Part shown: one piece after another, positions 46,311 through 50,527 of the stretch
How positions within the stretch are numbered: the first letter of the stretch is position 1
Layout: each line of letters starts with the position of its first letter
Assembly (NCBI RefSeq): GCF_029893235.1
Contig: NZ_JARXWE010000001.1
Span: 62,001-126,000 of the forward strand
Reading direction: 5' to 3'
Length of the DNA stretch: 64,000 bases
Source of the DNA: Dysgonomonas sp. PH5-45
Lineage (GTDB): Bacteria; Bacteroidota; Bacteroidia; Bacteroidales; Dysgonomonadaceae
The notes under the pieces: model-generated
Told to the model about the DNA's origin: nothing
Seen by the model: only the letters and a program-made list of their open reading frames with translations
Databases searched by the model: none
Program-made: the position numbers and the translations under genes

Positions 46311-47309
46311 TTAAGGGCAAGTAGGTTCAACTATCGAAGGATCAGGGTTATTAGGATTACCTACATAACGTTGAGGAATAACTTTCCTTTTAGACTTACT
46401 TATTAAACAATAGGCCGGATTTTCGAGAAATTTATCCAACTCTGATTGTATAAGTTCGTTTGATTGGCATTCAATATGCTTCAGGTTTGTATTTTGAGAG
46501 ACGTCAAGGCTGGTTATCGCACTTCGTTCACAAAGAAGTACTTCCAATTTTGGGTTTTGGGTTACATCGATATAACCCAGCCCATCTATCCTTTGAGCAT
46601 CCAAAAGGGTCAGGTTCTTATTTTGGGAAACATCTATGCTGGTCAACGGCAAATCGAAAATGCTCAGATGCTCTAACTTTAAAAGTTTCTCAATACCGTC
46701 AAGCGAAGAAATTTGACTATCTCCAATATACAGCCATATTAACCGTTTCTCACCGCATTCGTCGGTTTCCCACTTGACGCAAGGGTTACCTATACCGTCC
46801 GTACCAAAACTCTCTGTGTCGAAATTCCAGTTGAGGGTATTACCCGGATTATTGTTATATATTTCTTTAAGAGCAGCTATGTCGGAGGCATGACTGTTGT
46901 TTGTAGTTCCACAAGGGGGAGTACACGGTTCATGAGGGGGAGTACACGGTTCATGCATGCGCAACCAACGGTTTCCGAGCCAACAATATAGCCCGGGGCA
47001 GATGTTTTCGGCCAACACCGTATTGGTGTTATATACCCAAAGGCCGGCATGTGCCGTCATATCCCAACCGGTATCGGCTCCTTCCATTGTAGCCAACATG
47101 TTAGCACCGGTTTCTTTTAGTAGATTAACCCTTGGCATCAGTAGCCCACGGGTAGAATTAGCATCCGTTCCTGCCTTCTCCTTGAGTTGGAGTATGGCGC
47201 CTTTTTCGGTTTTCTGGTCTTGCCCAATAGTTACCTGGGCTTTCATCCCTGCAAAACTAAAGAATAGAACAACAGGTAGAAGTATTTTTATATATTTTAA
47301 GCTTTTCAT
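46311..47309 (-). CDS. Exported protein: shared N-terminal module plus leucine-rich repeats
   Basis: 332 residues from the ATG at 47309, with a signal peptide (MKSLKYIKILLPVVLFFSFA). The mature N-terminus carries the module AQVTIG, GAILQLK, RGLLMPRVNL, GLWVYN and GLYCWLGNRW that is shared with the two genes upstream. A linker with two copies of HEPCTPP follows, then leucine-rich repeats of the Bacteroidota type (LTSIDVSQNKNLTLLDAQ, ITSLDVSQNTNLKHIECQ). Third gene of the operon, 45 bases after the second. Surface or periplasmic role; partner unknown. Confidence 0.82.
   Translation of the reverse strand: MKSLKYIKILLPVVLFFSFAGMKAQVTIGQDQKTEKGAILQLKEKAGTDANSTRGLLMPRVNLLKETGANMLATMEGADTGWDMTAHAGLWVYNTNTVLAENICPGLYCWLGNRWLRMHEPCTPPHEPCTPPCGTTNNSHASDIAALKEIYNNNPGNTLNWNFDTESFGTDGIGNPCVKWETDECGEKRLIWLYIGDSQISSLDGIEKLLKLEHLSIFDLPLTSIDVSQNKNLTLLDAQRIDGLGYIDVTQNPKLEVLLCERSAITSLDVSQNTNLKHIECQSNELIQSELDKFLENPAYCLISKSKRKVIPQRYVGNPNNPDPSIVEPTCP
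46915..46956. repeat. Two tandem 21-bp in-frame repeats
   Basis: 46915-46935 and 46936-46956 are identical at 20 of 21 bases and encode HEPCTPP twice in the linker of the leucine-rich repeat protein. Copy number could vary between strains without a frameshift. Confidence 0.85.
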
Positions 47310-47354
47310 AATCTTTGTTTCATATTGTTTTGTGTTTATAGTTGGCACCCGTTT

Positions 47355-47741
47355 TTAATTGGGCGGAGTCAGTTTTACAGCCAGCCATTGGTAAACATCG
47401 TTTTCATCTTTGTTCCATACATAGACTCCGGGGTCTATACTGTTACCGCCAATGTGGTAAACCACCAATCCGATATGCTTGTCCTTGTCCCAAGGACCGG
47501 TTGCACCGTTTATAGTTGTCGCTATATCGCTACCACTTGCCGTAAGCGATGTGAGGATGACACGTGGCAAAAGGAGCCCTTTGTCTGCATTGGAATTATC
47601 GTCAGTAATGCCCTTCTCGGTTTTCAGTTGGAGTAGAGCGCCCTGAACAGGACTTTCGTCTGTACCTATGGTTGCCTGTGCTTTCGCCGATAGGATGGCA
47701 AAAAGCATCAAGGTAAGAATGAGTGTAAGTTTTAGTTTCAT
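47355..47741 (-). CDS. Small exported protein consisting of the shared module
   Basis: 128 residues: signal peptide (MKLKLTLILTLMLFAILSAK), then only the module of its neighbours (AQATIG, GALLQLKTEKG, KGLLLPRVILTSL, HIGLVVYHIGG, GVYVWNKDENDVYQWL). It ends where the neighbours begin their distinct C-terminal domains. It lies 50 bases after the FISUMP gene and 45 before the leucine-rich repeat gene. No function is known. Confidence 0.8.
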   Translation of the reverse strand: MKLKLTLILTLMLFAILSAKAQATIGTDESPVQGALLQLKTEKGITDDNSNADKGLLLPRVILTSLTASGSDIATTINGATGPWDKDKHIGLVVYHIGGNSIDPGVYVWNKDENDVYQWLAVKLTPPN

Positions 47742-47791
47742 ATGTTTTTGTATAATGTTTTATTTAGTTCTGTTTTCTGGGTCGAACAATA

Positions 47792-49126
47792 TTAATCTTT
47801 TTTGCAACGGACTGTATAGAGACCATAACGCCCAGCGGTGCCACGCATTACTTTCTGAGAATCCCCATCGCCCGTTCTACCTGTAAAAAACTGTCGTCGC
47901 CATGAATTGCCATTGCTGTGCGCACTGGCCGTCCAAAACTGTGTGTAGCGGCCATAATCTCGAGATTCGCCATCAGCGGCAGAGCCGACAATAAGAATAT
48001 CGAAGCCACCCTGAGCCGCAGAAAGGCTTCTTCCTTTGTATTCCCCTTCGCCAACTCCAAAACATTCCGAAATCATAGCCAACCCGTGTCCTTGGTCAGT
48101 GTCAGATCCTCGATTAACTAAACCATAATAAATTTTTTCCCATTCTGCACCATCCCATGTAGGAGGATTAAAATTATAGTCTGTTTCGTACCAACTGTAA
48201 GGTGTAGGGTTATTGTAAATAGCTTCTTCCAGATCGTTCCATTCCCTGTCGCTGGGCAAATGCCAACCATCAGGGCAAACGCCCTGGTGAACTACGGCCA
48301 CACTTTCTTGTTCATCTCCCTGACCTTCTTTTTTATTATCATGCTTACGGTTAGCAGCAAAATACCAATTATAGAGTATGCCGTTACGAGGACTCCATTC
48401 TTCTGTAGCCTTCACCTTGTCATAAGGACATATCCACAAGCCGGGAGAGCTATATTTCCTTGACTCCTCCCAAGGGTAAGCCCAGCATTTAGTAGTATTA
48501 ACGCTTTGCTTACCATTCCCGTCAACAATAATGGGTTGACGTTCTGCCGTATGCAGATAGTTAGGATCGTTGGGGTCGGCAGGAATAAACCGCAGATTTT
48601 CGGTCATCCATTCGCCAACGCTGACGCCGTTCGCATCGAAGAATTCACGGTAGCGATAAGTTTGTGGGCCATTCAACTGAGACCGATTATCGGTAAAGGT
48701 ATTAACTTCGTCTGCATTGTCCGCATCTACCCCTTTTCCCATATATTGCCATTTGGTTCCATTCCACACATACAATCCTTTGTAGATAGGATCGAGGCTA
48801 CAATAATCGTCCTTGTGGTTGTAAACGGATAACCCGATATGTTTTTCATATTGTTCGCCGCCATCCTCGGTGTCGGTTATTTCATTTTCCCCCATCTTTA
48901 GCTTCTTCAAATCGCTCAATTGTACGCGAGGCATAGCCAGTCCGCGCGAAGCGTTAACTCCGGTGGTTTGCGTTTGTTTCAGGTCGAGCAACGATCCGGG
49001 ATTAGAAGTTTCTGTCGAACCAATGGTTACCTGAGCCCTAAATGCAGGACTCAAAAATAACGTTACAAAGAGTAATAAAAGCGGTAGCTTTCGTTTGCTC
49101 AGTTTTGTGTGTCTGTTTGTTTTCAT
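47792..49126 (-). CDS. FISUMP-domain exported protein with the shared module
   Basis: 444 residues, signal peptide through PAFRAQ. The shared module runs from AQVTIGSTETSNPGSLLDLK to GLYVWNGTKWQYMGKG (residues about 31-130). Then comes the Fibrobacter succinogenes major paralogous domain: VGEWMTENLRF, GILYNWYFAAN, GVCPDGWHLPSDREWNDLE, FWTASAHSNGNSWRRQFF and the final YTVRCKKD. FISUMP proteins are surface-exposed lectin-like proteins of unknown ligand. First gene of the operon; the 650 bases upstream carry the regulatory repeats. Confidence 0.88.
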   Translation of the reverse strand: MKTNRHTKLSKRKLPLLLLFVTLFLSPAFRAQVTIGSTETSNPGSLLDLKQTQTTGVNASRGLAMPRVQLSDLKKLKMGENEITDTEDGGEQYEKHIGLSVYNHKDDYCSLDPIYKGLYVWNGTKWQYMGKGVDADNADEVNTFTDNRSQLNGPQTYRYREFFDANGVSVGEWMTENLRFIPADPNDPNYLHTAERQPIIVDGNGKQSVNTTKCWAYPWEESRKYSSPGLWICPYDKVKATEEWSPRNGILYNWYFAANRKHDNKKEGQGDEQESVAVVHQGVCPDGWHLPSDREWNDLEEAIYNNPTPYSWYETDYNFNPPTWDGAEWEKIYYGLVNRGSDTDQGHGLAMISECFGVGEGEYKGRSLSAAQGGFDILIVGSAADGESRDYGRYTQFWTASAHSNGNSWRRQFFTGRTGDGDSQKVMRGTAGRYGLYTVRCKKD

Positions 49127-49188
49127 AAAATTGATGTTACATGTCTGTTATATTAGTAATGTTTTTTTATATCCATTTTCAGAAAAAA

Positions 49189-49310
49189 AAGTACGGGGCT
49201 CTATGCCGGGCTTAATTAATAGAGAGACTACCTGCTATTTTCGCAAACGGCAGGACAATCGAATAAATTAAAAGGCAAAATAATAATGAGGCACAGAATG
49301 CCCCGTACTT
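49189..49310 (-). promoter_or_regulatory. Long inverted repeat enclosing a possible structured leader
   Basis: AAGTACGGGGC at 49189-49199 is the exact reverse complement of 49300-49310. Imperfect pairing continues inward (TATGCC with GGCACA). A smaller stem CCTGC/GCAGG lies in the middle. Read on the minus strand, the closing helix is followed by eight T residues, like a terminator or attenuator 60 bases before the FISUMP start. The paired ends could also be the termini of a small mobile element, but no target duplication is seen. Confidence 0.5.
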
Positions 49311-49544
49311 AGTCTTGAATGGCCACTTCTTCTTTATCTTTTGGTTGAAGTAATGGCACAGAAAGGGTGGATAAACTTTTCTGAAAAAATTTATCCGGAT
49401 ATTTTTATTGATAAAATTATTTGGTATAATATGATGCGTGCACGCACGTTTTTTATTACACGATAAAATAAAGAAATAAGTCTTTATTATTTGTATAATA
49501 AAAGATGGTAAAGAATGTAGTTTTGTTAGTTGTGGTTTATGTGA

Positions 49545-49577
<33 letters not shown>

Positions 49578-49777
49578 ATAAAATAACAACACCATCCAAA
49601 TTCTTGGATAACAAAAATTCGATTGTAAATCGTTATGTATTGGCCTTTCATTGTTTCAATTCGATATTCAGGATGCAAATATAACGATAAAAATCAAATA
49701 CAAAACTATAAAAACAGAACTTTTATGAAAAGAAGTTAAAAATAGGCAGACCGTATTTTGCCCCGACAGTGATGTAC

Positions 49778-50527
49778 TTACCGTTGCTTTATGCTACCCG
49801 AACCTTTTATGTTTTTATGCACGTTTTCAGGATTTCCTATGTATAGTATATCTCCGCTGCCTTCTATGGCTGCGGTTAGTTTTTGGGTAACGTTTACCTT
49901 GATATCTCCACTTCCTTGAACGAAGCATTGGGCTGTTTGACTTTCATAATCGAAGAGATTCATGTCTCCACTGCCCTCTATAACGCAGGTTAGCTTTCGC
50001 GATTTTCCGCTGAGTTCGATATCGCCCGAACCTGCAATTTTCATATTGGTTTCCTGGCATTGCAGTTCTTCAGCTTTTATATCTCCGCTACCTTCCACAA
50101 GCAAGCCTAAGAATTCGGTGTACATAGGGCCTTTCAGAAGAATGTTGCCCGAGCCTTTTATCACCGCTTCATGTAAAGACCGGGAATTTGTATAGATAGT
50201 GAACCGCGTTGGGCGTATATCCGAAGAAGGATGCATGTCGATTGTAAGCGTTTTTCTATGCACTTTTACGATTACTTCCGGCTGTATGTTATCGTCGGTC
50301 TCTACCCGTATATAAGGGGCAGTTTCCGTCTTTTTTTCGTATATAAGCTGTCCTCCTGTTTCTAATACAATAAGGTCATAATCTGATATGGTATATTCAC
50401 GGCTGACTATTTTACCGCTTCCTTTTATTTTTTGAGTGTCGTTATTGTTTTTTGTGATAGTACATGATGTTTGTAATAAGACAGCAAACAGCAGTATAAA
50501 TAAGAAATGTGCAGATTTTGTATTCAT
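49778..50527 (-). CDS. Head GIN domain (DUF2807) lipoprotein
   Basis: 249 residues with a lipoprotein signal (FAVLLQTSC). The mature part is a beta-solenoid in which GSGD/N recurs about seven times (IKGSGNILL, VEGSGDIKAEEL, IAGSGDIELS, IEGSGDMNLF, VQGSGDIKVN, IEGSGDILYI, IKGSGSIKQR), the hallmark of head-GIN proteins. It is anchored in the outer membrane or periplasm. Function is unknown; related proteins are common in Bacteroidota. Monocistronic. Confidence 0.9.
   Translation of the reverse strand: MNTKSAHFLFILLFAVLLQTSCTITKNNNDTQKIKGSGKIVSREYTISDYDLIVLETGGQLIYEKKTETAPYIRVETDDNIQPEVIVKVHRKTLTIDMHPSSDIRPTRFTIYTNSRSLHEAVIKGSGNILLKGPMYTEFLGLLVEGSGDIKAEELQCQETNMKIAGSGDIELSGKSRKLTCVIEGSGDMNLFDYESQTAQCFVQGSGDIKVNVTQKLTAAIEGSGDILYIGNPENVHKNIKGSGSIKQR

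Follow-up and report, generated by a model that had tools for sequence, protein, structure and literature searches.

A GA-repeat leader as a putative phase-variable switch before an operon for three exported proteins in Dysgonomonas

What sets the expression of an operon whose three proteins share one N-terminal module? We analysed a stretch of 64,000 nucleotides (nt) from Dysgonomonas sp. PH5-45 (assembly GCF_029893235.1, contig NZ_JARXWE010000001.1, positions 62,001 to 126,000), hereafter the window, in which such an operon lies on the minus strand at 46311-49126 and encodes the proteins P1, P2 and P3. Judging from the sequence, it is likely that these are three exported proteins with a common module of a fibre-like family, expressed behind a phase-variable leader, and it is the leader that says more than the module about the possible control of the operon. 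This leader of ~545 nt, which lies before P1, contains a promoter-like box, a leader open reading frame (ORF) with a (GA)14 tract, and a strong intrinsic terminator:

49676..49683, minus strand: promoter-like box TATATTTG, a match to TAnnTTTG
49526..49651, minus strand: leader ORF as assembled, 41 amino acids (aa), MKGQY...RERERE...PHINHN, in a closed register
49593..49610, minus strand: ahead of the tract, a short inverted repeat (ATCCAA..TTGGAT) that exceeds its counterpart in the sister leader at C26 by one base
49547..49575, minus strand: (GA)14 dinucleotide tract within the leader ORF
49212..49544, minus strand: the sole open frame after the tract, 110 codons, with its TAA at 49214-49212, inside the terminator hairpin
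49369..49396, minus strand: inner hairpin GGATAAA...TTTATCC
49183..49310, minus strand: terminator, a long branched hairpin with a GTACGGGGC/GCCCCGTAC stem, then U8

The TAnnTTTG box is what we take to be the promoter element of Bacteroidetes. Translation from the leader ATG (49651) yields MKGQYITIYNRIFVIQEFGWCCYFIRERERERERE-PHINHN and then meets a stop codon. Past the tract, the two frames other than the 110-codon frame run for just 2 and 6 codons, which leaves more than 200 nt between their stops and the hairpin; the terminator ends 56 nt before the start of P1. The terminator is predicted to fold at −42.5 kcal/mol with a z of −5.7, none of 200 shuffles being equally stable (120 nt, U-run left out), and across nine copies in the same genome 8 of its 27 predicted pairs are changed on both sides with pairing kept. 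Two sister hairpins of this genome have z values of −2.8 and −2.4 (2 of 200 shuffles each), and the stretch lying before the tract of L108 has a z of −0.4. An Rfam scan of the leader gave two matches, both under the gathering score and both set aside.

A leader of several hundred nt is common to the sequences upstream of seven module genes of PH5-45. An eighth module gene (L022 10153) has only the last hairpin in common with the window leader, and the module genes on C6 and C20 are without a GA tract. At L022 17570-17992 the tract is decayed (n = 2) and the frame is open through 140 codons ahead of a module gene, as if fixed open. A partial leader of the same family, possibly a remnant, lies on the minus strand at L045 6339-6772 (G000 C16:52338-52771), with no module gene within 8.5 kb around it.

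The layout of the leader suggests a switch. Replication slippage in the GA tract would change the reading register of the leader. Two of the registers would halt ribosomes over 200 nt short of the hairpin, so that the terminator would form and the operon would be off; the third would carry them into the hairpin, which they would hold open, letting RNA polymerase read through and turning the operon on. Many other leaders have an open frame that ends at the start codon or continues into the gene, and there translational coupling may act in addition to antitermination or in its place. We thus infer, by analogy, slippage-driven and translation-dependent antitermination, in which the long frame is assigned to the ON state because of the terminators and of a streptococcal precedent: according to the excerpted text of Danne et al. 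2014 (PMC3894217), experiments on the pil1 and pil3 leaders of Streptococcus gallolyticus found that a longer leader peptide prevents the premature terminator. Read in this way, the window copy would be off as assembled.

Similar tracts recur in related genomes. We searched comparison sets of one genome per species for a GA pattern anchored on a preceding TA, with the reversed pattern as control. Among seven chosen genomes, tract places number 4 in PH5-45, 15 in G321, 7 in G307, 17 in G007 and 43 in G020, and 0 in both G327 and G016, with 0 or 1 control match per genome. A slightly longer pattern occurs in 24 of 101 genomes of the family, spread over 5 of 15 genera, with one control match overall; in the order, 6 of 295 genomes match the tract pattern, 3 of them outside the family, and among 345 genomes of the class PH5-45 alone has it. 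When the window leader was used as a DNA query against 41 genomes, relatives matched it only around the tract. The places examined comprise all 15 of G321, 7 of G307 and 17 of G007, 15 of the 43 of G020, and two other loci; two places of G321 were dropped for runs of N directly after the tract. The list holds 64 places, a few of them short chance runs in genes; n is at least 12 in 58, and 57 of these have 300 clean bases after the tract. At L104 and L107, N runs directly follow GA tracts in an otherwise one-contig genome. At L101 526-836, a one-contig genome contains (GA)155, the other tracts with n of at least 12 having 14-36.

The leaders precede genes of a few kinds. Behind those of G321 lie 6 module genes, 5 receptors, one laminin-G-like protein and one Y_Y_Y protein (the two dropped places aside); behind those of G307, 2 module genes and 5 receptors; and behind those of G007, 16 module-type genes and one receptor. 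The TonB-dependent receptors, 11 in number and chosen by eye, all match CarbopepD_reg_2 and Plug of Pfam, a SusC-type layout.

The frames after the tract follow a recurrent pattern. In 43 of the 57 leaders, two frames meet a stop no more than 8 codons past the tract and the third remains open over 80 or more of 100 codons, with 0.23 expected from dinucleotide shuffles; if at least 35 open codons are required, the count is 47 of 57, with 3.6 expected. The third frame is usually open through the terminator or up to the gene, and most module leaders, each compared with its own shuffles, give p values of 0.002-0.05. Receptor leaders have shorter open frames, of 19-55 codons in 10 of 11 and of 123 in L116. 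Of 58 leaders, 53 have an ATG in the GAG-AGA frame at a distance of 75-105 nt ahead of the tract, and 44 have TAnnTTTG 90-190 nt ahead of it (6.1 expected). Between tract and gene, a terminator-like hairpin with a U-run is present in 36 of 60 leaders (3.8 expected), in a scan that is blind to hairpins with large inner parts, such as the window's large branched loop. In the set with n of at least 12, taken over a slightly different stretch, 37 leaders have such a hairpin. The open frame runs into it in 36 of these, neither closed frame gets as far as the hairpin in 31, and the two findings coincide in 30.

The end of the open frame is also placed with respect to the gene behind. For this count, module-type genes were defined by the N-terminal motif rather than by the profile, and 6 of 42 leaders were left out for N or for a gene more than 700 nt away. 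Among the remaining 36, the open frame ends between −45 and +10 of the gene ATG in 16 (0.2 expected from shuffled leaders), enters the gene in frame in 10 (0.0 expected) and overlaps it out of frame in 4 (0.1 expected). Differences between paralogous open frames at codon positions 1, 2 and 3 number 1010, 910 and 1058 in G007 and 66, 67 and 72 in PH5-45; one pair each gives 25, 20 and 26 in G307 and 4, 5 and 7 in G321, and G020, with 1053, 1130 and 1431, has a mild third-position excess. Since these differences are near-even over the codon positions, it seems to be the readability of the frame that is kept, not the encoded peptide. The 12 codons before the tract show no third-position excess in genera g7 or g1; in g6 the final 6 of them have a mild one. 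The resemblance among these codons may lie at the DNA or RNA level.

The best independent support is that the same frame layout is kept in leaders of three genera and a second family. In G375, which belongs to another family, 14 tracts were found, and all 9 examined have an ATG at 78 nt together with one open and two closed frames; at 8 of the 9 a called exported-type gene, of other kinds, lies behind. Several of the genes behind these leaders (L152-L160) have a start like DN.F..PG...LN.L.ND..G. As a chance control, we took 16 GA tracts on viral contigs, 15 of which have neither an in-frame ATG at 75-105 nt nor TAnnTTTG; L177 has both. At ~10000-12000 of L177, a viral-classed contig, a GA leader with an ATG, a promoter-like box and a 104-codon open frame stands before the gene of an exported-type protein.

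The registers as assembled are unequally used. A clear open frame is present in 59 leaders (50 with n of at least 12 and the 9 of G375). Of these, 7 are in the open register and 26 in each of the two closed registers, so that 52 of the 59 switches, the window copy among them, are closed; all 7 open ones belong to G321 and G307. If the three registers were equally likely, 7 or fewer open leaders of 59 would have a probability of 0.00015, kinship ignored; the even split of the closed leaders, 26 and 26, is what one would expect if tract length changes freely. In G307, a tandem duplicate of leader and module gene (L115 488-4300) has opposite registers, closed at n = 22 and open at n = 29, with flanks that are 95% (172 nt) and 88% (1505 nt) identical.

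The operon behind the window leader is made up as follows (LRR, leucine-rich repeat):

47792..49126, minus strand: P1, ORF of 444 aa, signal peptide, module and FISUMP domain
48734..49036, minus strand: module of P1, from the module alignment and profile
47804..48613, minus strand: FISUMP (Fib_succ_major) domain of P1, residues 172-441
47355..47741, minus strand: P2, ORF of 128 aa, signal peptide and module, nothing more
46311..47309, minus strand: P3, ORF of 332 aa from ATG, signal peptide, module and LRR region
46443..46766, minus strand: LRR region of P3, residues 182-289, internalin-like match

The gaps are 50 nt between P1 and P2 and 45 nt between P2 and P3 (from its ATG; a GTG at 47348 is also a possible start of P3). 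Upstream of the leader, at 49778-50527 on the same strand, lies a gene for a DUF2807 (head GIN domain) protein. P1 scores above the curated cut-offs for FISUMP in both Pfam (PF09603, E 7.7e-14, 52.8 bits, cut-off 33.9) and TIGR02145 (49.3 bits, cut-off 41.65). P3 passes marginally for LRR_4 (E 1.4e-6, 28.8 bits, cut-off 27), and its match to the internalin-like NF033187 has an E of 9.6e-13, yet falls far under that model's cut-off. The lone match of P1 to solved structures (E 0.73) was rejected. The signal peptides of P1-P3 were read off the sequence by eye, and the three are probably surface or secreted proteins.

The module, ~100 residues long and directly after the signal peptide in P1, P2 and P3, has 26 invariant columns in the alignment of the three, with identities of 42% between P2 and P3 and 34% between P2 and P1. 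An earlier note on this DNA had seen here three exported proteins with one N-terminal module and interchangeable C-termini. The invariant columns and profile matches bear out the common module, and the C-termini indeed vary, with FISUMP in P1, none in P2 and LRR_4 in P3, within a large family. The same note counted an AQ start as part of the module's pattern; the AQ start is there, but it is no signature of the module, being the general Q-rule pattern of signal peptidase at most exported Bacteroidetes proteins, as given in an excerpt of PMC5837995.

A profile of the three modules finds 21 places in PH5-45 (best E 4.6e-50), 17 at E<1e-6 and the other 4 at 0.008-0.5, and with a 16-row profile two of these weak places rise to 3.4e-8 and 5.6e-11; the genome's list of module genes comes to 19, one of them truncated. 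At two loci (L022 13622-17293 and L026 1758-6725), very large exported-type proteins with the start [FY]YW.GG.G.WSD..HW are encoded directly behind module genes. Within the family, 81 genomes were sampled and 31 of them carry the module at E<=1e-5; these fall in 5 of 15 genera, with up to 61 matches per genome, and the two other genomes of the same genus as PH5-45 have no match at that threshold. In genus g6 the module has a diverged form with the start QVGIN. Of 247 genomes of the phylum, 16 match this lineage-specific profile at E<=1e-4, PH5-45 counted.

Compared with Pfam, NCBIfam and PHROGs, the module has no match that exceeds a model's cut-off. The ice-binding protein NF045625 was rejected as its identity (P2 residues 25-111, E 0.019, 14.3 bits against a cut-off of 400), the other weak matches being weaker. 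Profile-profile comparison, with five rows on the viral side, two of them 96% alike, relates the module to a domain of phage-fibre-like proteins of viral contigs (97.5% probability, E 5.3e-12), of the form VGIG.ATPD....L.V..TDKGLLIPRVT...L.V.NT...Y.G..W. This profile match places the module in an unnamed fibre-like domain family that is not unique to the operon. The likeness to the viral module (IG..TP...L.....KGLLIPRV...L.V.NT....Y.G..W) is that of the profile match; unlike it, the operon module comes directly after a signal peptide, has a longer middle and is followed by FISUMP, LRR or other parts. As far as sequence goes, the relation is compatible with a fibre element.

The viral contigs themselves were reached by a DNA pattern for KGLL.PR, which gave 14 stretches, 7 of them encoding the module as judged by eye (proteins on the viral-classed contigs L179, L180, L184, L185, L188, L190 and L192). 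Other routes were discarded: back-translated peptides gave 12 stretches with the module confirmed in none, a gapped DNA pattern gave one stretch without the module, and a contig scan of genomes with P2 gave a single 25-residue match, taken as chance. A tblastn of P2 against phage records gave no match, nor did the 16-row profile against solved structures. AlphaFold monomer models of the module (3 and 8 rows) reached a mean predicted local distance difference test (pLDDT) score of 48 and 56, too poor for use, and a Foldseek fold search with them returned nothing at E<=0.001.

Several observations weigh against a phase-variable switch of the kind proposed. In the window, the leader ATG reads the tract in a register other than GAG-AGA, one of 5 exceptions among 58. 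The open frame there ends 88 nt before P1, so that there is no translational coupling at this site, and the window leader is one of the 6 of 36 module-type leaders in which the frame stops earlier, the outcome expected in 35.7 of the 36 from shuffled leaders. Elsewhere, 8 leaders have no clear open frame, L028, L102, L103, L112 and L117 are not above their own shuffles, and the scan found no simple terminator in 24 of 60 leaders, including 6 of the 7 of PH5-45. Paralogous leaders within one genome are not independent, tract lengths may be miscounted in draft assemblies, and the closed registers are uneven inside genomes (10 and 4 in G020, 8 and 1 in G375). That only 7 of 59 leaders are open could reflect a cost of ON cells, a bias of the sequenced clones, or a reversal of ON and OFF. 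Moreover, G327 and G016 have modules without any GA tract, and the switch is therefore not needed for module genes; in 20 stretches upstream of the module genes of G327 (one ending at a contig end), one (ATT)5 was found and, by the limits used, no repeat in the others.

Were the registers reversed, the long open frame would hold ribosomes on the gene start and repress, and the two short registers would be ON. In 14 of the 36 module leaders the long frame reaches into the gene or overlaps it, which can hinder initiation, and with 52 of 59 leaders in short registers most genes would be ON; against this, the hairpins of the 36 of 60 leaders would be free to form in precisely these registers, and in S. 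gallolyticus, where this was tested, the long frame corresponds to ON, as excerpted from PMC3894217. We consider reversal improbable. That the leader ORF is a true small protein gene, itself phase variable and with an incidental operon behind it, would suit a frame open for at least 80 codons in most leaders, but is hard to credit given the near-even differences of paralogues over codon positions 1, 2 and 3 and the ending of the frame at the gene or in the terminator. We give a shade less credence still to (GA)n as a DNA element, triplex-forming or spacing a regulator, with the frames a by-product: the tract is polypurine, and the conserved sequence before it has no clear codon-position signal, but the tract sits after a promoter-like box and a start codon, and such an element would not demand that 43 of 57 leaders have a single open frame and two closed ones.

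A further proposal, which does not compete with the switch and may hold beside it, concerns the proteins: the module would serve to anchor or assemble a fimbria-like set of adhesins in which the three act together. The earlier note had leaned this way, with ligand-binding heads at the C-termini. The common module, export, the FISUMP and LRR parts, the operon arrangement and the relation to phage-fibre-like proteins all fit it, and the FISUMP and LRR parts could by inference act as binding heads. The tests gave these claims no support: no fimbrillin-type Pfam profile, of the sort that a pilus of the FimA/Mfa type would lead one to expect, matches P1-P3 at E<=1, no anchoring motif was noticed in P1-P3 on inspection by eye, and the structure models and fold search were as poor as described. 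We regard the adhesin set as possible, though rather doubtful.

Phase variation in Neisseria, Haemophilus and Helicobacter works through repeats inside the surface-protein gene itself. There, as would be the case with the GA leaders, slippage shifts a reading frame; the GA leaders differ in having a separate leader ORF, though the open frame enters the gene in 10 of the 36 module leaders. At Bacteroidales surface loci, promoter inversion reportedly turns outer-membrane proteins on and off at random, a similar outcome reached by DNA inversion. In S. gallolyticus, the excerpted text of PMC3894217 describes GCAGA repeats in the leader peptide gene of pil1 and pil3 together with a premature terminator, about two thirds of cells being low. 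The likeness lies in a tandem repeat within a leader ORF after the promoter, in a register that sets the leader end before or within/after a stem-loop terminator, and in a surface-structure operon behind. Unlike pil1 and pil3, the leaders described here, known from sequence, have a dinucleotide in place of a pentanucleotide, a Bacteroidetes-type promoter box and a leader often ending NL......LL-(ER)n, with up to 43 tract places per genome (in that genome, 15 were examined), targets that include TonB-dependent receptors as well as module proteins, and an open frame that often reaches the gene start. What is new relative to pil1 and pil3 is thus another repeat, another phylum, many places per genome and receptors among the targets, and the two kinds of leader are presumed to be convergent. 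No GA-repeat leader of Bacteroidota came up in searches of an open-access library with few subscription journals.

Taken beyond the window, slippage-driven antitermination probably has a wider reach: in some Bacteroidales, one cis-element, a GA-repeat leader with a terminator, would give genome-wide phase variation by standing ahead of tens of operons that encode exported module proteins and SusC-type receptors, with an origin independent of the streptococcal pilus leader. Most switches would be off, and single cells would show random small subsets of a large surface repertoire. In the literature surveyed, random control of Bacteroidales surface proteins is mostly put down to promoter inversion, and a leader switched by repeat length would be a second mechanism. 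One genome has 43 tract places and two more have 15-17; such a switch would affect the variation of receptors and other exported proteins, and, if true, the tract register read from sequence would predict whether an operon is on or off.

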